From Arcicella aurantiaca (GTDB taxonomy: Bacteria > Bacteroidota > Bacteroidia > Cytophagales > Spirosomataceae), in NCBI RefSeq assembly GCF_003148625.1, contig NZ_QGGO01000006.1:62001-126000 (forward strand): 64,000 bases of DNA. The letters run 5' to 3'. Below the pieces are notes generated by a model. That model had not been told where the DNA came from, did not search any database, and was given only the letters and a program-made list of their open reading frames with translations. Positions 39,615 to 51,802 of the stretch are shown in pieces; position 1 is the stretch's first letter, and each line of letters begins with the position of its first letter. Both the position numbers and the translations under genes were made by a program.

Positions 39615-41012
39615 ATGAATCTTAAAACTTCATTAATTAGTGCGTTAACGCTTACTTTCATTCTAATTTTCGGATGTAAGAATAATGACGTAACCACCAC
39701 AACATCATCCGCTACGGTAACTGCATTAACTTGTTCGTCGGCTACGTTTTCCGCAACTGCCACGGCTGGAACTGCTTACACAGGAACAGCATCTGTACCA
39801 TACACAGGCGGAAACGGAGGAGCATATTCAACAGGAACGGCAGTGACTTCGGCAGGTGTAACAGGATTAACGGCAACTTTATCGGCAGGAACATTGGCAA
39901 CTGGTGCAGGGTCGGCAGTTTTTGCCATTACGGGTACTCCTGCATCAAGCGGAACGGCAACTTTTGCCATTACTTTAGGCGGACAGTCTTGTACTTTATC
40001 GCTAACGGTAGTTGCTTCGGGTTCAACAGGCGGTGGAACAACATCGGGTTCGGCATGGTCGGTTGATACAGATATTGACAATATCGTAAAAATGGCAGAA
40101 GCATTTAAAACATCTTTAACTTCTACCCAAGTGACTGCCTTACAGTATTCTTACACAAAAGCCCAAGCTCAAAAATGGTCAAACTTGCCAGAAGGTTTAT
40201 ATCGTGGTCGTGTTGGTTTACAAACAAGCACATTTTCTACGACTCAATGGACGGCATTTTACAATCTAATGAAAGCCGCTACAAGTACCATTACCAATGA
40301 AGGAAATGCTGAATACGTTGGAATTTTAGCAGCAGACGATTATTTGAATACAATTGGTGGCGGTTCAGACTATGGTTCTGGCAATTATTATGTTGCTTTT
40401 ATCGGTACTCCAAGTACAACAGGCTTGTGGTGTTTACAAATTGGCGGGCATCACGGAACAATTATTCATACCTATAATGGCGGAAAAATGACAGGAGGCA
40501 CTCCTTCATTCCGTTCGACTGAACCTTTCCCTTCATTTACGTTGAAAGGGGTAAATTATAATCCAATTCAACAAGAACACGTGGCTTTAGCAGCTATGTT
40601 AACAGGATTGGGAAGTGCTGAACTTACAACGGCAAAACGTAGCTCTGCACAAAATGATTTGATTGCAGGGCCACAAAAAGACAGTAGTTTCCCAACGACA
40701 AAAACAGGGGTAAAAGTTGGTAATTTGACCCAAGCACAAAAAGATTTAGTGTTGGCTGCCATAAAAACTTATACAGACGATTTGGACGATAAAGCTGCGG
40801 CGGCAATTTATGCAAAATACAAAGCAGATATTGACAATACCTATATTTCGTATTATGGAACAACTGCTTTGGCAACATCAGGAGATTATGTGCTGATTGA
40901 TGGACCAAATGTATGGATTGAATTTTCAATGCAAGGTGGAATTATTGTCAGAAATGCAAATCATCCACACTCTGTTTGGAGAGATAGATTGGCAGATTAT
41001 GGTGCTAATTAA
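39615..41012 (+). CDS. DUF3500 lipoprotein with N-terminal Ig-like glycine/threonine-rich module
   Basis: The 465-residue protein has a lipoprotein signal ending FILIFGC (cysteine at 21). Residues 30-140 form one Gly/Thr/Ala-rich module (GTASVPYTGGNGGAYSTGTA, LTATLSAGTLATGAGSAVFA) of a type usually found as tandem copies in large Bacteroidota surface proteins; here a single copy acts as a stalk. Residues about 150-465 are DUF3500 (IGGHHGTIIHTYNGGKMTGG, HPHSVWRDRLADYG), a family without proven activity but with conserved histidines that could bind metal. The coding DNA for the stalk is visibly more GC-rich than its surroundings. It follows the two-component system by 172 bp and is ended by an intrinsic terminator. 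Confidence 0.85.
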   Translation: MNLKTSLISALTLTFILIFGCKNNDVTTTTSSATVTALTCSSATFSATATAGTAYTGTASVPYTGGNGGAYSTGTAVTSAGVTGLTATLSAGTLATGAGSAVFAITGTPASSGTATFAITLGGQSCTLSLTVVASGSTGGGTTSGSAWSVDTDIDNIVKMAEAFKTSLTSTQVTALQYSYTKAQAQKWSNLPEGLYRGRVGLQTSTFSTTQWTAFYNLMKAATSTITNEGNAEYVGILAADDYLNTIGGGSDYGSGNYYVAFIGTPSTTGLWCLQIGGHHGTIIHTYNGGKMTGGTPSFRSTEPFPSFTLKGVNYNPIQQEHVALAAMLTGLGSAELTTAKRSSAQNDLIAGPQKDSSFPTTKTGVKVGNLTQAQKDLVLAAIKTYTDDLDDKAAAAIYAKYKADIDNTYISYYGTTALATSGDYVLIDGPNVWIEFSMQGGIIVRNANHPHSVWRDRLADYGAN

Positions 41013-41046
41013 TTGTCTTTTTAACAGGTATTTTTCTCAAAATTTG

Positions 41047-41078
41047 AATATTGGCAACTTTTAGGAGTTGCCAATATT
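41047..41078 (+). terminator. intrinsic terminator after the DUF3500 gene
   Basis: A perfect 13-bp stem (AATATTGGCAACT with AGTTGCCAATATT) surrounds a 6-base loop and is followed by ATTTTCTTT. It lies 35 bp after the DUF3500 stop and separates it from the HupE-like gene. Confidence 0.8.
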
Positions 41079-41097
41079 ATTTTCTTTAAACTCAACA

Positions 41098-42303
41098 ATG
41101 AAATATATCAAACTGATTTTTGGACTATTAATCATTTTATGTTTAGCCAATAATAACGGTTTTTCGCATCCGATGCCTAATTCTGTGGTAGTGCTGAATA
41201 TTCATGAAAAAAATATTTCTGGAGAAATTCAAATACCACTTAGTGAGCTTCAAACCGCTATCGGAATGGGTGTAAATGATAATTCCCAAAACTTAATTGG
41301 AAGATTGGGTGATACTTTACGGGCGTATTTGTTAAAACATATTCGTCCAAAATCGTTTGATGGAAAGCCTTGGACTACACAACTTGGTGAAATGACGGTT
41401 TTAGAAATTAAAAGCAAATTAACAGGTGATTATAAAGAGCTTGTTGTTGAGTTTACCATGTCACCACCACAATTTTATGATTTACGAAACTTTTATTTTG
41501 ACTACGATGCCGTTTTACATCAAGTAGCGAGCCATAAAATTTTAATTTCAATCAAACAAGATTGGCAACAAGGAATTGTGAGTGAGGATTCAACCTTTCA
41601 AGATGTTGGCGTAATTTCATTAGATGTTCCAACGGGAAAAATCTTTCCTTTTCAGATTAGTTTGCAACAAGGAAGTGCTTGGAAAGGATTTAAAAATATG
41701 GTTAGTTTGGGCATTAGACACATTGTGGACGGAACAGACCACATTCTTTTTCTTTTGACTTTGCTTTTGCCAGCCATGCTTTTGGTGGAAGATAAACAAT
41801 GGGGGAGATTTAGTGGGAATAAATCAAGCCTTTTGAATTTACTAAAAATTGTAACGGCTTTTACAATTGGGCATTCGCTGACTTTATTTTTGGGGACAAT
41901 TCAATGGTTAAGTTTTCCGAGCAAACCTATCGAAATATTAATAGCAATTACCATTTTAATTTCTGCATTTCACGCCTTCCGTCCGATTTATCCCAAAAAA
42001 GAAATTCTCATTGCTGGTGGTTTTGGTTTAATTCACGGTTTGGCATTTGCTGAAACTCTTACCAATTTACAATTATCTACTAAACAAATGATTTTGAGCA
42101 TTTTTGGTTTTAATATTGGCATAGAATTGATGCAATTATTTATCATTTTATTGGTTTTTCCTATCTTAATTGTTTTGTCTAAAACCCCTTATTACAAGTT
42201 ATTCAGACAAGTGGGAGCAATTATGATGATAATTTTTGCCTTAGCATGGATGGTTGAAAGAATCCAAGAGAAACCCAATTTTATTACGCAGATGATAAAT
42301 TGA
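41098..42303 (+). CDS. HupE/UreJ-family membrane protein
   Basis: The ATG at 41098 gives 401 residues with a signal segment ending at NNNGFSHPMPNSVVVLN. Residues about 25-195 are a periplasmic domain. About six membrane helices follow, with the family's conserved histidine motifs: SLGIRHIVDGTDHILFLLTL, TIGHSLTLFLGT, AFHAFRPIYPKKE and GLIHGLAFAETL. HupE/UreJ relatives are implicated in nickel or cobalt entry, and histidine/aspartate pairs of this kind are thought to bind the metal. Whether this long variant with a periplasmic domain transports metal is not shown. It lies after the DUF3500 terminator and before a palindrome, so it is probably transcribed on its own. Confidence 0.85.
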   Translation: MKYIKLIFGLLIILCLANNNGFSHPMPNSVVVLNIHEKNISGEIQIPLSELQTAIGMGVNDNSQNLIGRLGDTLRAYLLKHIRPKSFDGKPWTTQLGEMTVLEIKSKLTGDYKELVVEFTMSPPQFYDLRNFYFDYDAVLHQVASHKILISIKQDWQQGIVSEDSTFQDVGVISLDVPTGKIFPFQISLQQGSAWKGFKNMVSLGIRHIVDGTDHILFLLTLLLPAMLLVEDKQWGRFSGNKSSLLNLLKIVTAFTIGHSLTLFLGTIQWLSFPSKPIEILIAITILISAFHAFRPIYPKKEILIAGGFGLIHGLAFAETLTNLQLSTKQMILSIFGFNIGIELMQLFIILLVFPILIVLSKTPYYKLFRQVGAIMMIIFALAWMVERIQEKPNFITQMIN

Positions 42304-42975: not shown

Positions 42976-43878
42976 CTATTTCCTATCAAACCTCCGAAAC
43001 TCATTTGGAGACATTCCTACGTATTTCTTAAACAGTTTTGCAAAGTAATTAGGATACTCAAATTTAAGCAAAAATGATATTTCTGAAACCGAATACGAAG
43101 TATGTAAAAGGTATTTTTGAGCTTCGCTAATGAGGTTTTGATGTACCAATTCAATGGCAGATTTTCCAGAAACAGCTTTACAAATTCTATTCAAATGTAC
43201 AGGCGTGATGTTCAATTCATCAGCAAATGCTGGAATACTTTTAGGGTATTCGGCATTTTTAATATTTTGCTGAAATTTTCTAAAATGAGTCATCATCGCC
43301 GAACCGCTTTGTTCAGCTTCTTCATGTTTGGTAAGTCGATGCAAGCAGATAAAAAATTGCGTAATACACGACCGTAACATCAAAAATCTTTCAGCATAGT
43401 CATTAAACAATTCATCTTCAATATTTTTTAAAACGTTTAACAGTTTTTCAAAAGGGAATACTTCGTCAAAATGACTCAAAATTCTTATTTGCTCAAACGT
43501 TTTCCAAATCAGACTTGATGTTTTAAAAATATCCTCAATGATGCTATCTGATAATGTTAAAATACACCCATCAATATCAGGAGAATAAACAAGTCCATGT
43601 AATAAAGTAGGGGGAATCAAAATCACACAAGGAGCTTCGATTAGATGTTTTTGTATTTCATCTTGAAAAGTTAAAGAGCCTTTTTTAATGATAAATACTT
43701 GAAATAAATGAGAATGGATATGTGGTTTTATATTCCAGTCGAAGGATTGGCTTCGAGTAGCGATTAATTCTAAAAATACATATTCAGCAGAATATTTACC
43801 TTGTGTATCTCCGTAAAGCCCATCGAAATTGATTACATTTTTTGGGGATTGCATATCAAATGTTTGATTTTTATCCAT
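42976..43878 (-). CDS. AraC-family regulator divergent from the tannase cluster
   Basis: The 300-residue protein has an N-terminal cupin (FDWNIKPHIHSHLFQVFIIK, residues 39-58, and CVILIPPTLLHGLVYSP). A C-terminal AraC helix-turn-helix covers about 200-300 (ELNITPVHLNRICKAVSGKS, and the signature FEYPNYFAKLFKKYVGMSPN). Architecture and length match PobR-like activators that respond to aromatic acids such as hydroxybenzoates. It starts 87 bp from the tannase ATG on the other strand, the classic position of a pathway activator. Gallate is the natural candidate effector, but that is inference from position. It is cytosolic. Confidence 0.9.
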   Translation of the reverse strand: MDKNQTFDMQSPKNVINFDGLYGDTQGKYSAEYVFLELIATRSQSFDWNIKPHIHSHLFQVFIIKKGSLTFQDEIQKHLIEAPCVILIPPTLLHGLVYSPDIDGCILTLSDSIIEDIFKTSSLIWKTFEQIRILSHFDEVFPFEKLLNVLKNIEDELFNDYAERFLMLRSCITQFFICLHRLTKHEEAEQSGSAMMTHFRKFQQNIKNAEYPKSIPAFADELNITPVHLNRICKAVSGKSAIELVHQNLISEAQKYLLHTSYSVSEISFLLKFEYPNYFAKLFKKYVGMSPNEFRRFDRK

Positions 43879-43965: not shown

Positions 43966-45426
43966 ATGAAAATCTTTTTGAAAAGTAGCATTTGTTTTTT
44001 AATGATGTCCATTTTTAATGCACAAGCACAAAATTCTCTTGTATTTGACTCCTCAAAATTTGTGGAGCTGTCTCAAGAAGTAAATGGAAAATTATTAAAG
44101 GTTAGAGCCTACGAAAATATCGTTTATGTTGCCAATCCAGTAGAAGCTAATTTTCAAAAATTAAACATTTATGTTCCAGAAGAATATTTTAATGGAGAAA
44201 AAATAAATGGTTTTACGGTTGAAACAGCACCCATATTTTTTCCAAACAAAGTTGGTGGATATATGCCTGCCATGCCCGCAACTTTTATAAATCCACCGCA
44301 AAGAGGTCCATTTGGTGGCAACAATCAATCTATACTTTTGGCATTATCAAAAGGATATATTGTAGCTTCGGCAGGTGCAAGAGGGAGAACATCTCCAACA
44401 GGAAAAGCCCCAGCAGGTCTTGTTGACCTTAAAGCCGCTATCAGATATTTGAAATTTAATGACAAACTAATGGCAGGTGATGCCCATAAAATAATCTCAA
44501 ATGGTACAAGTGCAGGCGGAGCCATGTCAACTTTGTTAGGAGCAACCGCCAATCATCCAGATTATGAACCATATTTAAAAGCGTTAGGTGCTGCCACTGC
44601 CACAGATGACATTTTTGCCGTTTCAGCATATTGCCCCATCATTAATCTTGAAAATGCCGATATGGCTTATGAATGGCAGTTTAATAAAATTCATAATTAT
44701 AAAAAGATGATTTTCTCGAATGTCAATGGTGAATTTAAGCGAGAAATGAAGGACGGAACGCTTGATGCAGAATCAATTAATGTTTCTGATAAATTAAAAA
44801 AAGCGTTTCCAGCTTATGTAAATAGCTTGAATTTGAAAGATAATGAGGGTAAAAAATTGGAATTGGACGGAAATGGAGATGGAAATTTTAAAGAGTTAGT
44901 AATGTCATACATACTTGCATCTGCTCAAAAAGCAATATCAACGGGCGTTGATTTATCAAAAGTGGATTTCATTGAAATTAAAGATGGGAAAGTTATTTCG
45001 GTTGATTTTGATAAATACATGACGTATATGGAACGCATGAAAACACCTCCTGCTTTTGATGCACTTGACAATTCTTCACCCGAAAATCAGGTTTTTGGTA
45101 CAGCTACCGTTGATAAACGTCATTTTACAAACTTTGCCATTCAACAAACAGCAAGCGACCCAAGCACTTTGGCTGAAAGTCTGCAAATAAAAATGATGAA
45201 TCCAATCAATTATATCGGAGACGCTCAGGCAAAAACTGCGAAACATTGGCGAGTAAGACACGGTGCAAAAGATAAGGATACTGGTTTTGCGGTACCCGTA
45301 ATTTTGGTAACAACGCTAAAAAACAAAGGGTTCAACATTGATTTTGCTCTGCCTTGGGACAAGCCTCACAGCGGTGATTATGACCTCGAAGAGTTATTTA
45401 TCTGGACGGATAGTATTTGTAAATAA
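43966..45426 (+). CDS. tanB: tannase, subtype B (tannin acyl hydrolase)
   Basis: The 486-residue protein has a signal peptide ending NAQAQN and closely follows the Lactobacillus-type tannase throughout. It shows NGTSAGGAMSTL with nucleophile Ser about 182, FAVSAYCPIINLENADMAYE, HWRVRHGAKDKDTGF with Asp about 436 and PWDKPHSGDYDLEELF with His about 468. The Asp-His spacing of 32 equals that of the Lactobacillus plantarum enzyme (Asp419, His451). Tannases hydrolyse galloyl esters of gallotannins and simple gallate esters to gallic acid; here the enzyme would act in the periplasm or outside. It heads an operon whose later genes form a gallate catabolic route, which strongly supports the function. 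Unlike the Lactobacillus enzyme it carries an export signal. Confidence 0.93.
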   Translation: MKIFLKSSICFLMMSIFNAQAQNSLVFDSSKFVELSQEVNGKLLKVRAYENIVYVANPVEANFQKLNIYVPEEYFNGEKINGFTVETAPIFFPNKVGGYMPAMPATFINPPQRGPFGGNNQSILLALSKGYIVASAGARGRTSPTGKAPAGLVDLKAAIRYLKFNDKLMAGDAHKIISNGTSAGGAMSTLLGATANHPDYEPYLKALGAATATDDIFAVSAYCPIINLENADMAYEWQFNKIHNYKKMIFSNVNGEFKREMKDGTLDAESINVSDKLKKAFPAYVNSLNLKDNEGKKLELDGNGDGNFKELVMSYILASAQKAISTGVDLSKVDFIEIKDGKVISVDFDKYMTYMERMKTPPAFDALDNSSPENQVFGTATVDKRHFTNFAIQQTASDPSTLAESLQIKMMNPINYIGDAQAKTAKHWRVRHGAKDKDTGFAVPVILVTTLKNKGFNIDFALPWDKPHSGDYDLEELFIWTDSICK

Positions 45427-45477: not shown

Positions 45478-46431
45478 ATGAATATCACTTGGGAGTTAGC
45501 CCATCTCGCACACGTCGAATTACTTACGCCTAAATTGGACGAAAGTATCCGTTTTTTTACCGAAATTTTAGGAATGTCCATTTCTGAAATTAATGGAGAT
45601 TCCGCCTATTTACGTGCTTATGACGATTATGAACACCATTCATTAAAACTGACAGCTCATAAACATTCTGGTATTGGGCATTTTGCTTGGCGTACTCGCA
45701 GTCAAGAATCGCTTGAAAATAGAGCAAAGGCAATAGAGCAAAAAGGTTTGGGAATTGGTTGGGAAGACCATGAATGTGGATATGGGAAAGCTTATAAATT
45801 TAGATACCCAGACGGACACATTTGTGAACTTTACTTTGAATCTAACAAATATAAAGCAGAAGGTGAGCATAAATCTGCTTTGAAAAATACAGCGAGTAAA
45901 TTTCCGGGAAGGGGAATGAATGTACGAAGAATTGACCATTTGAATCTTTTAGCAAAAGATATTGTGGCTTTCAGAGATTTTCAATTTGGCGTATTGGGCG
46001 GAAGAATGTCTGAAACTATCATTTTTGATGATGAACCAAAAGGTATTTGGGTTTCGGTAAATTCCAAGTCTTATGATTTGGCAATTACGGAAGACCATTC
46101 GGGACTTTCTGGGCGTTTTCATCACCTTACTTACGCCGTAAACAGTCGTGAAGAAGTGCTTTTGGCAGCAGATATTGCCCTTGAAAATGGCGTATTTATA
46201 GAAACAGGACCTCATAAACACGCTATTCAACAGACATTTTTCTTGTATCTCTATGAACCTGGGGGAAATCGTATTGAAATTGCCAATCCAACGGCAAGAT
46301 TAATTCTCGACCCAGATTATGAAACCGTCGTTTGGAACAGAGAAGAACGCATGAAAGGACAAGCTTGGGGATTAAAAACCGTTGAATCTTTCCACACAAG
46401 AGGTACTCCAATGCCAGAAGAATTATTGTAA
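45478..46431 (+). CDS. type I extradiol ring-cleavage dioxygenase (VOC superfamily)
   Basis: The 317-residue protein has two VOC repeats (about 7-125 and 150-275), as in catechol 2,3-dioxygenase. The metal triad is visible as RIDHLNLL (His 154), RFHHLTYAV (His 215) and PGGNRIEIAN (Glu 267). Spacings of 61 and 52 agree with His153/His214/Glu265 of XylE. His 207, His 246 and a nearby Tyr also fall where XylE has His199, His246 and Tyr255. It should be an iron(II) enzyme cleaving a catechol- or pyrogallol-type ring in the cytosol. It lies 51 bp after tannase and before GalB/GalC/GalD-type genes, so gallate is the inferred substrate. Known gallate dioxygenases are of the unrelated LigB type, which would make this a non-orthologous replacement. 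Confidence 0.88.
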   Translation: MNITWELAHLAHVELLTPKLDESIRFFTEILGMSISEINGDSAYLRAYDDYEHHSLKLTAHKHSGIGHFAWRTRSQESLENRAKAIEQKGLGIGWEDHECGYGKAYKFRYPDGHICELYFESNKYKAEGEHKSALKNTASKFPGRGMNVRRIDHLNLLAKDIVAFRDFQFGVLGGRMSETIIFDDEPKGIWVSVNSKSYDLAITEDHSGLSGRFHHLTYAVNSREEVLLAADIALENGVFIETGPHKHAIQQTFFLYLYEPGGNRIEIANPTARLILDPDYETVVWNREERMKGQAWGLKTVESFHTRGTPMPEELL

Positions 46432-46545: not shown

Positions 46546-47676
46546 ATGAAAATTACACAAGAACAATGGACACGCAGAACATTCCTTAGCACTTTAACAG
46601 GCGTTGGAACAGGAGTATTATTTAGTCCACTATGGTCGTTTGGCAATAATGAAATTGACCCAAAAGTGGCTTCAATAGTTGCCAAAACACTGTCTATTGA
46701 TACGCACAACCATATTGATATTCCATTAAATGCTGGAAAATCACCAAGTCCAGTATTTGATTTATTGGGAGATTTCAAAAAATCGGGATTGTCGGCAATA
46801 TGTTTGACATTTGCCGTTGATTATCAAAAATTAGAAAACGCTGGCGATGCTTACAATAGATTTATTACAGGTTTGGACGGAATAGATGTTTTACTGAAAG
46901 AAAATAATCTATCTCGTTCCATGAATTTAAAAGACCTAACCACTTCTTTTAAAAATAAAAAACCTGCCATTATTCAGTCTGTTGAGGGAGGACATTTTTT
47001 AGAAGGACAAATTGATAGACTCAAAATTGCGTATGACAGAGGTTTGAGAGTGCTTGGACTTTTGCATGATAATGATGCTTCTGTGCCTTTGGGAGATATT
47101 TACACCAAACCGCCACAATGGAATGGACTAACGACATTTGGGAAAGAAGTCGTGCAAGAATGTAATAAAATGGGTATCCTCATCGACCTGACTCATTGTA
47201 GCAATAAAGCCATTGATGATGCTCTGACCATTTCTACCAAACCAATGGTTATTACGCATACGAGTCTTGATACACAGTTGGGACATAATGAAAAAATGGC
47301 TCAAATGATGAAACCAAGACTTATCAGCAAAGAACAAGCCAAGATTTTTGCTAACGGAGGCGGAGTAATTGGGGCTTGGAGACATTTGACAGATACACCT
47401 TTGGAATATGTACAGAATATCAGAGCTTTGGTTGATGTTGTTGGGGTGGATAATGTTTGCATTGGCACAGATACGAAAATTAGTAGAGATGCCAACAATA
47501 AAAATCCGTTCCGACTTGGTGAAAATTCCAATCAAATTTGGCAAAATCAAGAAGCAGGATTTTTCTATACTGTCGTTGAAGCTATGTTGAAAGCTGGATT
47601 TTCAGAAAAAGAGATTATTAAAATTGCAGGAGGAAATTTTTGTAGAGTTTTTGATGCAACTACAAAAAAACACTAA
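46546..47676 (+). CDS. Tat-exported M19 (renal dipeptidase) family amidohydrolase
   Basis: The 376-residue protein starts with a twin-arginine signal (TRRTFLSTLTGVGTGVLF). It has M19 metal motifs: DTHNHID at 52-58, QSVEGGHFLEG with the bridging Glu at about 147, LIDLTHCS, VITHTS and IGTDTKI. Family members hydrolyse dipeptides, often with a C-terminal D-residue, but the fold belongs to the amidohydrolase superfamily that also contains lactonases. Inside a tannin/gallate operon a peptide substrate is not obvious. It could process another ester, lactone or amide arising from tannins. It ends 5 bp before the GalB-type gene, so it is co-transcribed. The export signal argues against a role in the cytosolic gallate pathway itself. 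Confidence 0.82.
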   Translation: MKITQEQWTRRTFLSTLTGVGTGVLFSPLWSFGNNEIDPKVASIVAKTLSIDTHNHIDIPLNAGKSPSPVFDLLGDFKKSGLSAICLTFAVDYQKLENAGDAYNRFITGLDGIDVLLKENNLSRSMNLKDLTTSFKNKKPAIIQSVEGGHFLEGQIDRLKIAYDRGLRVLGLLHDNDASVPLGDIYTKPPQWNGLTTFGKEVVQECNKMGILIDLTHCSNKAIDDALTISTKPMVITHTSLDTQLGHNEKMAQMMKPRLISKEQAKIFANGGGVIGAWRHLTDTPLEYVQNIRALVDVVGVDNVCIGTDTKISRDANNKNPFRLGENSNQIWQNQEAGFFYTVVEAMLKAGFSEKEIIKIAGGNFCRVFDATTKKH

Positions 47677-47681
47677 TCAAT

Positions 47682-48401
47682 ATGAAAAAGAAATTATTAG
47701 TATTAGGAGCCCATTCAGCCGATTTTGTTTGGCGTTCAGCGGGTACAATTGCCAAAAGTGTGGAAGAAGGTGCTGAAACGTTGGTAGTTTGTATGTCCTA
47801 CGGAGAACGTGGAGAATCTGGCGAATTATGGAAAGAAGACCCCAATCGTAGTGTAGAAAACGTAAAGGCAATTCGTCACGAGCAAGCACAAAAAGCAGCA
47901 GATATTCTTGGAACGCCAATTCAGTTTTTAAATTGGGGAGATTATCCAATGCTCATTTCAGACGAAAGAATTGAACAATTAACCAAAATAATTGGCGATT
48001 TTGAACCAACTGTTATTCTGACTCATACCGCAAAAGACCCTTTCAATCCTGACCATCCTTTGGCATATCAGGCTACGGAACGAGCAAGATTATTGTCGTG
48101 TGGAGCAGGCGTTCCGAGTGCGTTTAAAAATATTGACCCACCCATGTGGTATTCATTTGAACCGCATCAGCCAGAAATTTGCGAGTTTTTACCCGATACT
48201 TTCATTGATATTTCGTCGGTTTTTGAAAAGAAATTAGCCGCAATGGACTGTATGGGAGCTCAAAAATATTTGAGAGATTATTATGCGGAATTAGCTTCGA
48301 GAAGAGCCAATCATGCCCGTAGAATTTCGGGTAAAAAAGATATTAAATACGCAGAAGCCCACCAAAGCCATTTGCCAAGAATAACGAACAGTATTTTTTA
48401 G
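47682..48401 (+). CDS. galB: 4-oxalomesaconate hydratase, GalB-type (PIG-L/LmbE fold)
   Basis: The 239-residue protein has the PIG-L fold with metal motif GAHSADFVWRSAGTIAKS (His 11, Asp 14) in place of the usual HPDDE. The conserved YGERGESGELW segment and HPLAYQATERARLLSCGAG follow. GalB of Pseudomonas putida, which hydrates 4-oxalomesaconate to 4-carboxy-4-hydroxy-2-oxoadipate in gallate breakdown, is a zinc protein of this family with a closely similar opening. No signal peptide is present. It sits 5 bp after the M19 gene and 62 bp before the aldolase gene that would use its product. With the aldolase and GalD tautomerase in the same operon, the role is well supported by context. Confidence 0.85.
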   Translation: MKKKLLVLGAHSADFVWRSAGTIAKSVEEGAETLVVCMSYGERGESGELWKEDPNRSVENVKAIRHEQAQKAADILGTPIQFLNWGDYPMLISDERIEQLTKIIGDFEPTVILTHTAKDPFNPDHPLAYQATERARLLSCGAGVPSAFKNIDPPMWYSFEPHQPEICEFLPDTFIDISSVFEKKLAAMDCMGAQKYLRDYYAELASRRANHARRISGKKDIKYAEAHQSHLPRITNSIF

Positions 48402-48463: not shown

Positions 48464-49075
48464 ATGTATAAAGAACTCTCAAAATTCTCCGCCGCCACCA
48501 TTTGCGAAGCACTTGGCAATAAAGGATATTTACCGTCTGGCATTAAACCAATTGCGGCAAATATGAAAGTTTGTGGCCCTGCTTATACGGTTCAAACAAT
48601 GCCACGAGATAATGTTTTGTTGCATCGTGCTTATGCCTATGCACAGGCAGGAGACGTATTAATTGCCAATTGTTCTGGTTTTTATGAAGCAGGATATTGG
48701 GGAGATTTAATGAGTCTCGGAGCAAAAACCAAAGGTATCAATGGCTTAGTAATTGATGCTTGTGTCCGTGATGCAGACGATATTGAGGCAATGGGTTTTC
48801 CTGTTTTTTCAAGAGGTTTATGTATCAGAGGAACGTCAAATCATGGTGATGGCACGCTAAACGAACCCATTATGATTGGCGATGTTTTGATAAATGCAGG
48901 TGATATAATTGTTGGCGACCGTGATGGTGTAGTGGTTGTGCCTTTTGCCAAAATTGAAGAAACCATTGAAAAAGCCATTGCCAGAGAAGCAAAAGAAGAA
49001 AGAACAAGAGCAGAGTTAAGAAAAGGATTTCCTTCTATTAAAGTCTATGGTTGGGATGAGAAGTTTGGATATTAA
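48464..49075 (+). CDS. galC: 4-carboxy-4-hydroxy-2-oxoadipate aldolase, GalC/LigK-type (RraA fold)
   Basis: The 203-residue protein has the RraA/HMG aldolase fold. The class II pyruvate aldolase motif G-x20-R-D-x2-D is seen as GDLMSLGAKTKG followed by IDACVRDADDIEAMGF. Other matches are TICEALGNKGYLPSGIKP and GDIIVGDRDGVVVVPF. The family includes the aldolase that splits 4-carboxy-4-hydroxy-2-oxoadipate into pyruvate and oxaloacetate, the last step of the gallate and protocatechuate 4,5-cleavage pathways. It is not the RNase E inhibitor RraA, since the catalytic Arg-Asp pair and the operon context favour the aldolase. It is cytosolic and follows the GalB-type gene by 62 bp. Confidence 0.87.
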   Translation: MYKELSKFSAATICEALGNKGYLPSGIKPIAANMKVCGPAYTVQTMPRDNVLLHRAYAYAQAGDVLIANCSGFYEAGYWGDLMSLGAKTKGINGLVIDACVRDADDIEAMGFPVFSRGLCIRGTSNHGDGTLNEPIMIGDVLINAGDIIVGDRDGVVVVPFAKIEETIEKAIAREAKEERTRAELRKGFPSIKVYGWDEKFGY

Positions 49076-49089
49076 AATTTTCAAAAATT

Positions 49090-49878
49090 ATGAGTGGTAA
49101 ATTAAAAATAGCCGTTTTGGGTTTGGGCGAAGCAGGAAGTCATTTTGCAAATGACCTGACAAATTTAGGTGTAGTGGTTTTCGGATTTGATCCAAAACCA
49201 ATTCATCAATTAAATGCTGCAATCACAGTAAAATATAGTAATTCTGAGGCTGTTCAAGAAGCTGATATAATTTTTAGTGCCAATCTTTCTTCAGTTTCTG
49301 AAGAAATTGCAGAAGAGTTGGTGAAGGTGCTAAAACCAAATCAGTTTTTCTGTGAAATGAATACGTCTGGACCAGAGAAAAAGCAGAAAATCGCTTCAAT
49401 TTTAGAGCCGTCGGGCGTAAAAATGATTGATTTAGCAATTATGGCTCCCGTTCCACCCAAAGGAATCATGACACCTCTTTTGGCTTCTGGCGAATTTGCA
49501 ACCGAATTTTCAGAGAAAATAAAATCATTAAATCTCGACATTTCTGTACTTGAAAATAGTAAAATTGGCGATGCTGCCACTCGAAAATTATTACGCTCAA
49601 TTATTTATAAAGGCATTGCTGCCGTAGTTTGTGAAGCAATGGAAGCGGGAGAAGCCTTCGGAATGGAAACCTATATTCGTTCACAGATTGGTTCGTTGAT
49701 TGGTGGAAATGATGAACTTATTGACCGTTTTGTGGAAGGTAGTCGCACCCACGCTATTCGTAGAATGCACGAAATGGAAGCCGTTATTGAAATGTTGGAC
49801 GCAAAGGGAATTGAGTCAATCGTAACGCAAGGAACACGAAATAATTTAGAAAAATTAAGTTTGATGTCTTCGAAATGA
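49090..49878 (+). CDS. NAD(P)-binding dehydrogenase with C-terminal DUF1932
   Basis: The 262-residue protein begins with a Rossmann motif (AVLGLGEAGSHFANDLTNLG, residues 8-27) and belongs to the 6-phosphogluconate/3-hydroxyisobutyrate dehydrogenase group. It has LIFS-type strand DIIFSANLSSVSEE, FCEMNTSGPEKKQ, and the DUF1932 helical domain from about residue 180 (KGIAAVVCEAMEAGEAFGM, HAIRRMHEMEAVIEMLDAKG). Its reaction is not established. It is embedded between the aldolase and tautomerase genes with a 14-bp upstream gap, so a redox step on a carboxy- or keto-dicarboxylate in gallate metabolism is likely. It may reduce a side product or serve a related aromatic substrate. Confidence 0.8.
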   Translation: MSGKLKIAVLGLGEAGSHFANDLTNLGVVVFGFDPKPIHQLNAAITVKYSNSEAVQEADIIFSANLSSVSEEIAEELVKVLKPNQFFCEMNTSGPEKKQKIASILEPSGVKMIDLAIMAPVPPKGIMTPLLASGEFATEFSEKIKSLNLDISVLENSKIGDAATRKLLRSIIYKGIAAVVCEAMEAGEAFGMETYIRSQIGSLIGGNDELIDRFVEGSRTHAIRRMHEMEAVIEMLDAKGIESIVTQGTRNNLEKLSLMSSK

Positions 49879-49953: not shown

Positions 49954-51039
49954 ATGAAATCTATTCCATATATGCAATTTAGAGGCGGAAGTTCAAAAGG
50001 CTTGTTTTTCAAAGCTGAAGACTTACCCGCAGACGAAAACGAAAGAAATCGGTATTTGCTTTTAGCGATGGAAGGCACAATTGAAGGTGATTTTCGACAA
50101 ATTGATGGTTTAGGTGGAGCCAATTCTCTAACAAGTAAAGTCGCAATCATTAGCAAATCCGCCAATACTGAGGCAGACTTAGATTATCTTTTTGTGCAAG
50201 TGGTGGTCGGGAAAGGCAAAGTTTCTACTGCCCAAACCTGTGGAAATATTTTAGCGGGCGTGCTTCCCTTCGCCATTGAATCAGACATGATTGAAGCGAC
50301 AGAATCAACTACGTCTGCCAAAATAAATATTGTAAATACAGGCGGTATTTGTGAAGTTGTAGTACAAACACCCAATCGTCAAATTGAATATGCAGGCAAT
50401 GCAAAAGTTGATGGCGTTGTGGGAACATCTGCCCCAATTATTTGTAATTATTTAGAAACCGTCGGTTCAACGTGTGGGGCTTTGTTGCCAACAGGAAACT
50501 CAAAAGATATTGTTGAAGGAATTGAAATAACGTGTATTGACAACGGAATGCCAATTGTAATAATGCGAGCAAAAGATTTTGGATTGATTGGAAATGAATC
50601 AAAAGAAACCTTAGAAGCTAACGAATTACTGAAAGGAAAAATTGAAAAAATACGATTACAAGCTGGTTATTTAATGAATTTAGGCGATGTCAGTCAGCAA
50701 ACAATTCCTAAAATGTGCTTAGTTTCAGAAGCTGAAAATGGTGGAATTATTAACACCAGAATGTTTATTCCACACGTAGTTCATGAAGCCATTGGCGTTT
50801 TGGCAGCGGTTTCTGTGGCAACGGCTTGCATAACGCCTAATACTGTAACCGAAGGAATTGCTAATTATTCATTTCAAAAATCTGAAAATTCAGCAATGCT
50901 AAGTATTGAACATCCTTCTGGAGAATTTACGGTAAATCTGGAATATGAAGCACAAAATTCTGATGTAGAAATAAAAAAGTCAGGCGTAATTCGTACCGCC
51001 CGACTTCTAAGTATTGGTCATGTTTTTATTCCAGCATGA
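49954..51039 (+). CDS. galD: 4-oxalomesaconate tautomerase, GalD-type (PrpF family)
   Basis: The 361-residue protein has the PrpF/diaminopimelate epimerase-like double-barrel fold: MQFRGGSSKGLFFKAEDLPA at the start, QIDGLGGANSLTSKVAIIS, AQTCGNILAGVLPFAIE (cysteine at the active site) and CGALLPTGNSKDIVEG. GalD of Pseudomonas putida, from this family, converts the keto and enol tautomers of 4-oxalomesaconate after gallate ring opening. The position at the end of the operon with GalB- and GalC-type genes fits that function better than PrpF aconitate isomerisation. It is cytosolic. It ends 4 bp before the convergent DeoR gene, with no room for a stem-loop between them. Confidence 0.88.
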   Translation: MKSIPYMQFRGGSSKGLFFKAEDLPADENERNRYLLLAMEGTIEGDFRQIDGLGGANSLTSKVAIISKSANTEADLDYLFVQVVVGKGKVSTAQTCGNILAGVLPFAIESDMIEATESTTSAKINIVNTGGICEVVVQTPNRQIEYAGNAKVDGVVGTSAPIICNYLETVGSTCGALLPTGNSKDIVEGIEITCIDNGMPIVIMRAKDFGLIGNESKETLEANELLKGKIEKIRLQAGYLMNLGDVSQQTIPKMCLVSEAENGGIINTRMFIPHVVHEAIGVLAAVSVATACITPNTVTEGIANYSFQKSENSAMLSIEHPSGEFTVNLEYEAQNSDVEIKKSGVIRTARLLSIGHVFIPA

Positions 51040-51043
51040 GGTT

Positions 51044-51802
51044 TTACAAAACTTCAATTTTAATATTTTCGTAAGCTAATAATTCAGGAGATTCGGGCGA
51101 TAATTCTGTAATTAAATAGTCAACATCTTGAATATCAGCAATTTTCATTTTCATAACGGTATTCATTTTTTCAGAAATTGCCAAAATCGCTACTTTATCA
51201 GAAGCCTTCAACATCGCTTTTTTAACCTGCACCGTTTCCCAATCAGAGTCTGTCAATCCACCATTTACGTCCAAAGCATTTGTACCTAAAATACATAAAT
51301 CTGCTTTCATTTCAGCCAATCGTTGATGCACTTCACCACCGATAGACATTTGGCTATATCGTGAAATTTGACCTCCAATTAAAATAATTTCAATATTCGG
51401 TTTATCTAACAACTCAACGGCAGTCAAGGGATTGACAGTCATAAAAGTTGCCGTTAAGTCTTCGGGAATTAGTTTGACAAACTCACGAATGGTTGTACCA
51501 CCTCCAATCAAAACCAACATTCCTTCTTTCAATAAAGTCAATGCTTTTTGAGCAATCACTAATTTTTGTGAATGAGCGTAATTTTCCTTTAGGTTTGATG
51601 AATGATGATATGACTTAGACATGGCTCCTCCCCTAATCTTAATGATTTCTCCACTTTCTGCTAATTCATTAACATCTCTCCGAATTGTGTCTTCCGATAC
51701 ACTCAATATTTCGGTTAATTCCCCTAATGATATTCTTGTATGAACGTTGATTTCTTTTAAAATCAAGTCTTTTCGTTCCTTTTTTAATAAGCTAACCGAC
51801 AT
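51044..51802 (-). CDS. DeoR/GlpR-family transcriptional regulator
   Basis: The 252-residue protein has an N-terminal helix-turn-helix (LGELTEILSVSEDTIRRDVN at about 24-43, then GEIIKIRGGAMS). A DeoR C-terminal sensor domain follows (LIGGGTTIREFVKLIP, IEIILIGGQISRYSQMSIGG, ADLCILGTNALDVNGGLTDS). These repressors bind phosphorylated sugars in the cytoplasm. It converges on galD and diverges from the third SusC gene with a 252-bp gap, so it more probably controls the SusC/SusD/GH29/GH20 genes than the gallate operon. Repeated TTGCAA motifs in that gap are plausible operators. It has the usual family length. Confidence 0.92.
   Translation of the reverse strand: MSVSLLKKERKDLILKEINVHTRISLGELTEILSVSEDTIRRDVNELAESGEIIKIRGGAMSKSYHHSSNLKENYAHSQKLVIAQKALTLLKEGMLVLIGGGTTIREFVKLIPEDLTATFMTVNPLTAVELLDKPNIEIILIGGQISRYSQMSIGGEVHQRLAEMKADLCILGTNALDVNGGLTDSDWETVQVKKAMLKASDKVAILAISEKMNTVMKMKIADIQDVDYLITELSPESPELLAYENIKIEVL

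Follow-up and report, generated by a model that had tools for sequence, protein, structure and literature searches.

Which enzyme opens the ring of gallate in a bacterium that carries the genes for the later steps of the pathway but no galA beside them? This question is raised by a locus of Arcicella aurantiaca, located in a stretch of 64,000 nucleotides that we analyzed (termed the window). A sequence-only reading of the window had put forward a VOC-type extradiol dioxygenase for this step. From the genome context, we consider it highly probable that the VOC protein is a non-orthologous, type I gallate dioxygenase that forms 4-oxalomesaconate (OMA) and replaces the LigB-type enzymes GalA and DesB.

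A gal operon without galA

The gal operon of Pseudomonas putida consists of galA, -B, -C, and -D together with the transport genes galT and galP (PMC9942251). Compared with it, the operon in the window has no galA, and a VOC protein is the sole ring-cleavage candidate encoded there, as the sequence-only reading had claimed. The order of the encoded proteins is subtype B tannase, VOC protein, M19 hydrolase, GalB, GalC, DUF1932 dehydrogenase, and GalD, all on the + strand and with intergenic gaps of 5 to 114 bases from the tannase through the tautomerase. The tannase (43966 to 45426), which would release gallate from tannins, reached 650 bits with NF041556 (cutoff, 300) and matched the solved tannases 6yq4 and 4j0c at 444 to 456 bits. 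GalB (47682 to 48401) is a 4-oxalomesaconate hydratase of the PIG-L fold (PF02585), whose best solved relative is the 4-oxalmesaconate hydratase 5cgz (217 bits). GalC (48464 to 49075), a 4-carboxy-4-hydroxy-2-oxoadipate (CHA) aldolase, scored 188.4 bits with NF006731 (cutoff, 179; solved relative, 3noj), and GalD (49954 to 51039), a 4-oxalomesaconate tautomerase, scored 479.4 bits with NF033377 (cutoff, 440) and 339 bits with the oxalomesaconate isomerase 6p3j. The locus thus unites the genes for an OMA tautomerase, an OMA hydratase, and a CHA aldolase, as expected of a gal pathway operon, with the VOC gene as the candidate for the conversion of gallate to OMA. The DUF1932 protein (49090 to 49878; PF09130 and PF03446) is an oxidoreductase resembling 6-phosphogluconate dehydrogenase.

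On the − strand, an AraC-family regulator (42976 to 43878) diverges from the operon and is nearest to HpaA-type regulators of aromatic catabolism (TIGR02297, 137 bits, below the cutoff of 274.65); it is retained next to the cluster in most loci of the family. Past GalD lies the gene for a DeoR-family regulator (51044 to 51802, − strand; PF00455 and PF08220), which relatives do not retain next to the cluster. The accessory M19 dipeptidase-like hydrolase (46546 to 47676, + strand; PF01244, 149 bits), which has a twin-arginine-like start, occurs in few relatives (L046, L050, and partly L039); it may be exported and hydrolyze a gallate conjugate. Upstream of the operon lies a gene pair for a DUF3500 lipoprotein and a HupE/UreJ-type membrane protein (39615 to 42303), which is found near the cluster in about 10 relatives.

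GalA and DesB have about 420 aa. A search of the whole A. aurantiaca genome (a 99.9% complete draft of 5.93 Mb in 70 contigs) with PF02900 yielded no GalA-like gene; the lone match was a 296-aa protein nearest to E. coli YgiD and 4,5-DOPA dioxygenases. The lack of a LigB-like gene in the operon, claimed earlier, was confirmed, and no LigB-type gallate dioxygenase was found elsewhere in the draft genome. Nor did PF02900 reveal a GalA-like LigB protein among 222 genomes of the family, where the matching open frames had at most 345 aa, and such matches were not associated with the VOC gene (22/32 genomes with it versus 100/190 others; Fisher P = 0.12). PF07746 (LigA) matched nothing in the 222 genomes, controls included, and was not counted; PF02900 was used in its place.

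Iron site and position 199 of the VOC protein

We confirmed the 317-aa open reading frame of the VOC protein at 45478 to 46431 (+ strand). Pfam matched PF00903 (VOC/Glyoxalase) in two stretches of the protein and gave no match to the LigB domain (PF02900), which places it outside the LigB-type family of GalA and DesB. Its top NCBIfam model was TIGR03211 (catechol 2,3-dioxygenase) at 308.8 bits, short of the cutoff of 320.2 for that equivalog. The AlphaFold model of the protein (pLDDT, 82.7; pTM, 0.87) superposed on 3lm4 and 7q2a (AphC) with a TM score of 0.91 and 40% identity. Alignment to homoprotocatechuate 2,3-dioxygenase (HPCD) of Brevibacterium fuscum (H155, H214, and E267) identified the Fe ligands as H154, H216, and E267, which are invariant in 109/109 clade members. 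In the triad proposed earlier, His154 and Glu267 were therefore right, and His215 was off by one. The two-domain VOC fold and the His-His-Glu iron site are those of a type I extradiol dioxygenase.

A point missed by the sequence-only reading is that Tyr199 (codon at 46072 to 46074, + strand) occupies the position of the acid-base His of other type I extradiol enzymes, His200 in HPCD. The VOC protein does not have this second-sphere His, and neither do the clade members first checked, 109/109 of which have Tyr. The VOC protein is a variant of the type I family, in which the fold and the iron site are retained and the acid-base His is replaced. In our alignment, the solved structure 9wgj and all plasmid members with OMA-linked genes had Tyr at position 199, and His was found in HPCD, in 3lm4, in the genome's own paralog on contig C32, and in the catechol meta-pathway members of T. 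thermophilus (L174) and Rhodococcus (L176). The choice between Tyr and His thus tracks an OMA-linked versus a catechol-linked gene context. On the tree, the Tyr sequences formed a single group (support, 89/94), with one change.

HPCD shares with the VOC protein the type I fold, the three Fe ligands, and the equivalents of Asn157, Trp192, His248, and Tyr257 but differs in having His200 for Tyr199 and Arg243 for Thr243, at 24 to 26% identity in the structure alignment. AphC and 3lm4, catechol-type 2,3-dioxygenases of Rhodococcus RHA1, share the Fe ligands and the equivalents of Trp191, His248, and Tyr257 but have His at 199, Ala at 243, and a catechol or alkylphenol context. The best match among solved structures, PDB 9wgj (340 bits, ∼49% identical), was deposited as a “catechol 1,2-dioxygenase”; it shares Tyr199 and clusters with the Tyr clade, on a long branch that makes its placement unsure. 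Our literature search did not find a paper for 9wgj.

In HPCD, the proton of catechol is passed to O2 by His200, in whose absence the rate has been called vanishingly small (PMC10760822). The equivalent His has been called essential in DesB and BphC, and in DesB the third hydroxyl is held by Glu377′ (PMC3962378). Tyr199 may hold the third hydroxyl of gallate, or it may serve as the acid-base residue. The loss of the acid-base His could also mean another chemistry. We see an even chance that the Tyr clade represents a second, independently evolved gallate dioxygenase present across several phyla, with a new type I catalytic arrangement in which Tyr, not His, governs both the transfer of protons and the way the third hydroxyl is recognized. 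If confirmed, this naturally occurring replacement of His by Tyr, in an active site that has been studied in depth, would allow a direct test of what the acid-base residue does.

Distribution of the gene set

We evaluated the co-occurrence of the VOC protein and GalD in the 222 genomes of the family. The VOC protein (at least 67% identity) was found in 32 genomes and GalD (at least 62% identity) in 29, all 29 of which also had the VOC protein. In the three remaining VOC genomes, the gene was located on a short contig (G436 and G598) or near a contig end (G560). The hypergeometric value for this co-occurrence, 3e−33, is overstated, as genomes of the same family are not independent. Given a long enough contig, the family clusters kept the VOC protein, GalB, GalC, and GalD. 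DUF1932 was missing from four clusters (L046, L047, L050, and L088) that keep the other four genes, the tannase was present in no more than about one-third of the loci in the family, a point against the gallate reading, and several loci contained an MFS transporter of the aromatic acid type (TIGR00895, below cutoff).

The same gene set was found in distant bacteria. On an annotated plasmid of an Agrobacterium from walnut, the order GalB-VOC-GalC-GalD is followed by a tannase of an unrelated family (PF07519, 438 bits). The VOC protein, GalB, GalC, and GalD are annotated together on plasmids of Rhizobium sp. Q54, Thioclava, and Roseibium, and homology searches located the four in R. etli, Nonomuraea, and a plasmid from Hyphomicrobiales. 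In Pantoea piersonii, they lie within 10 kb. A set made up of the VOC protein, GalB, GalC, and DUF1932 occurs in Thermus, Meiothermus, Trueperaceae, and one Chloroflexi genome. Bradyrhizobium and Roseomonas relatives do not have the full gal set next to the VOC gene, which counts against the gallate reading; a GalD search of five Bradyrhizobium genomes found it in two, at loci away from the VOC gene.

Two of these lineages show gene neighborhoods of another kind. Tyr-type VOC proteins (60%) are widespread in Bradyrhizobium (L106 and L110 to L128), where they lie by molybdenum hydroxylase-like genes without adjoining gal genes. On plasmid pTHEOS01 of Thermus oshimai (L158), the genes for a Tyr-type VOC protein, GalB, GalC, and DUF1932 adjoin those for a 4-hydroxybenzoate 3-monooxygenase, a Rieske oxygenase, and an aldehyde dehydrogenase; this cluster may be a protocatechuate-cleaving branch of the same Tyr clade.

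DUF1932 widely accompanies GalB, GalC, and GalD (in the window and in L158 to L161, L163, L164, and L173), and in Pantoea sp. At-9b and Klebsiella it adjoins GalC and GalD, in neighborhoods for which the annotation shows no ring-cleavage gene. We know of no role for it in gallate catabolism, none of whose steps needs it. DUF1932 may bring a different substrate to the 4-oxalomesaconate branch.

Gallate and alternative substrates

By family assignment, and by inference for the VOC protein, the operon would degrade gallate derived from tannins. The tannase would free gallate, which the VOC protein would bind to Fe(II) through His154, His216, and Glu267 and cleave with O2 at the C4-C5 bond to yield 4-oxalomesaconate. 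GalD is predicted to tautomerize this compound, GalB to hydrate the product of GalD, and GalC to split the hydrated product into pyruvate and oxaloacetate. Whether C4-C5 cleavage of gallate is regarded as extradiol (with respect to the 3,4-diol) or as intradiol (with respect to the 4,5-diol), the product is the same. Gallate as the substrate is best supported by the recurrence of one gene set beside two unrelated tannases.

We weighed this reading against other substrates. As a protocatechuate 4,5-dioxygenase, the VOC protein would yield an aldehyde, which DUF1932 would oxidize as an analogue of LigC and which would then enter the GalD, GalB, and GalC steps; DUF1932 often adjoins the VOC gene, and the 4-hydroxybenzoate 3-monooxygenase and aldehyde dehydrogenase of the T. 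oshimai cluster fit such a route. We nevertheless consider it unlikely. Another contig of the A. aurantiaca genome (C29) encodes a PobA-like hydroxylase, PcaG, PcaH, PcaB, a fused PcaD-PcaC, a CoA transferase, a thiolase, and an AraC regulator, and this separate ortho pathway makes the opening of protocatechuate by the VOC protein less likely in this organism. Moreover, neither LigC-like genes nor genes for a LigI-like lactonase are conserved in the family clusters, the four clusters without DUF1932 keep the other four genes, and the tannases point to gallate. Cleavage of another galloyl-type compound, such as 3-O-methylgallate, would also lead to 4-oxalomesaconate, and Rieske oxygenases resembling VanA/VanB are encoded close to the VOC gene of Roseomonas and close to the gal cluster of Pantoea piersonii. 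This is quite improbable, since genes for O-demethylation or methyl-group handling are absent from the operon in the window and not conserved in relatives and since the product of tannase is free gallate.

More improbable still is an ordinary 2,3-dioxygenase for catechol or alkylcatechol that is present in the operon by chance: TIGR03211 is the best profile of the VOC protein and AphC and 3lm4 are its nearest folds, but the score with that profile stays below the cutoff, the operon has no catechol meta-pathway genes, the relatives inside such pathways have His instead of Tyr, and the VOC protein strictly co-occurs with GalD. The replacement of GalA by the VOC protein, as the sequence-only reading had suggested, is supported at the level of genome context by the tannase, GalB, GalC, and GalD genes of the operon, by the lack of a GalA-like gene in the draft genome, by the separate protocatechuate pathway, and by the recurrence of the gene set in distant bacteria.

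The closest functional counterparts are GalA of P. putida and DesB of Sphingobium SYK-6, which carry out the reaction proposed here, gallate to 4-oxalomesaconate, beside GalB, GalC, and GalD (PMC9942251, PMC3962378). They belong to the LigB superfamily (type II), unrelated to the VOC fold, and a confirmed role of the VOC protein would mean that two unrelated enzymes exist for one reaction. We found no VOC-type gallate dioxygenase in the open literature; a prior description may exist, as 9wgj, the ∼49% identical relative, has already been crystallized. Candidate ring-cleavage enzymes of Aspergillus niger are not needed for gallate use and so provide no fungal precedent. Annotation pipelines label the proteins described here “catechol 2,3-dioxygenase” or “VOC family protein,” and gallate catabolism has therefore probably gone unnoticed in Bacteroidota, rhizobia, agrobacteria, and others. 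Gallate derived from tannins and syringyl lignin is a feedstock for bioprocesses.

The A. aurantiaca genome also encodes paralogs of two of the operon's proteins. A second PrpF/oxalomesaconate tautomerase-like protein (42%; L166, 9197 to 10372, on contig C3) has a lipoprotein-like signal at its start, and its gene adjoins those for a FAD-dependent dehydrogenase and transporters, with no dioxygenase next to it. The second VOC protein (36% identical, contig C32) was set aside as a candidate, as it has the His, its relatives lie among other neighbor genes, and it does not follow GalD; its Fe-ligand Glu only seemed to be lost, owing to a one-column shift in the alignment. It belongs to a second VOC family (L004, 1706 to 2596, on C32; L068 to L077) that is 33 to 39% identical and has His. 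In relatives, genes of this second family adjoin those for FAD monooxygenase, FAH-like, histidinol dehydrogenase-like, SDR, and cyclase proteins, which points to an aromatic pathway.
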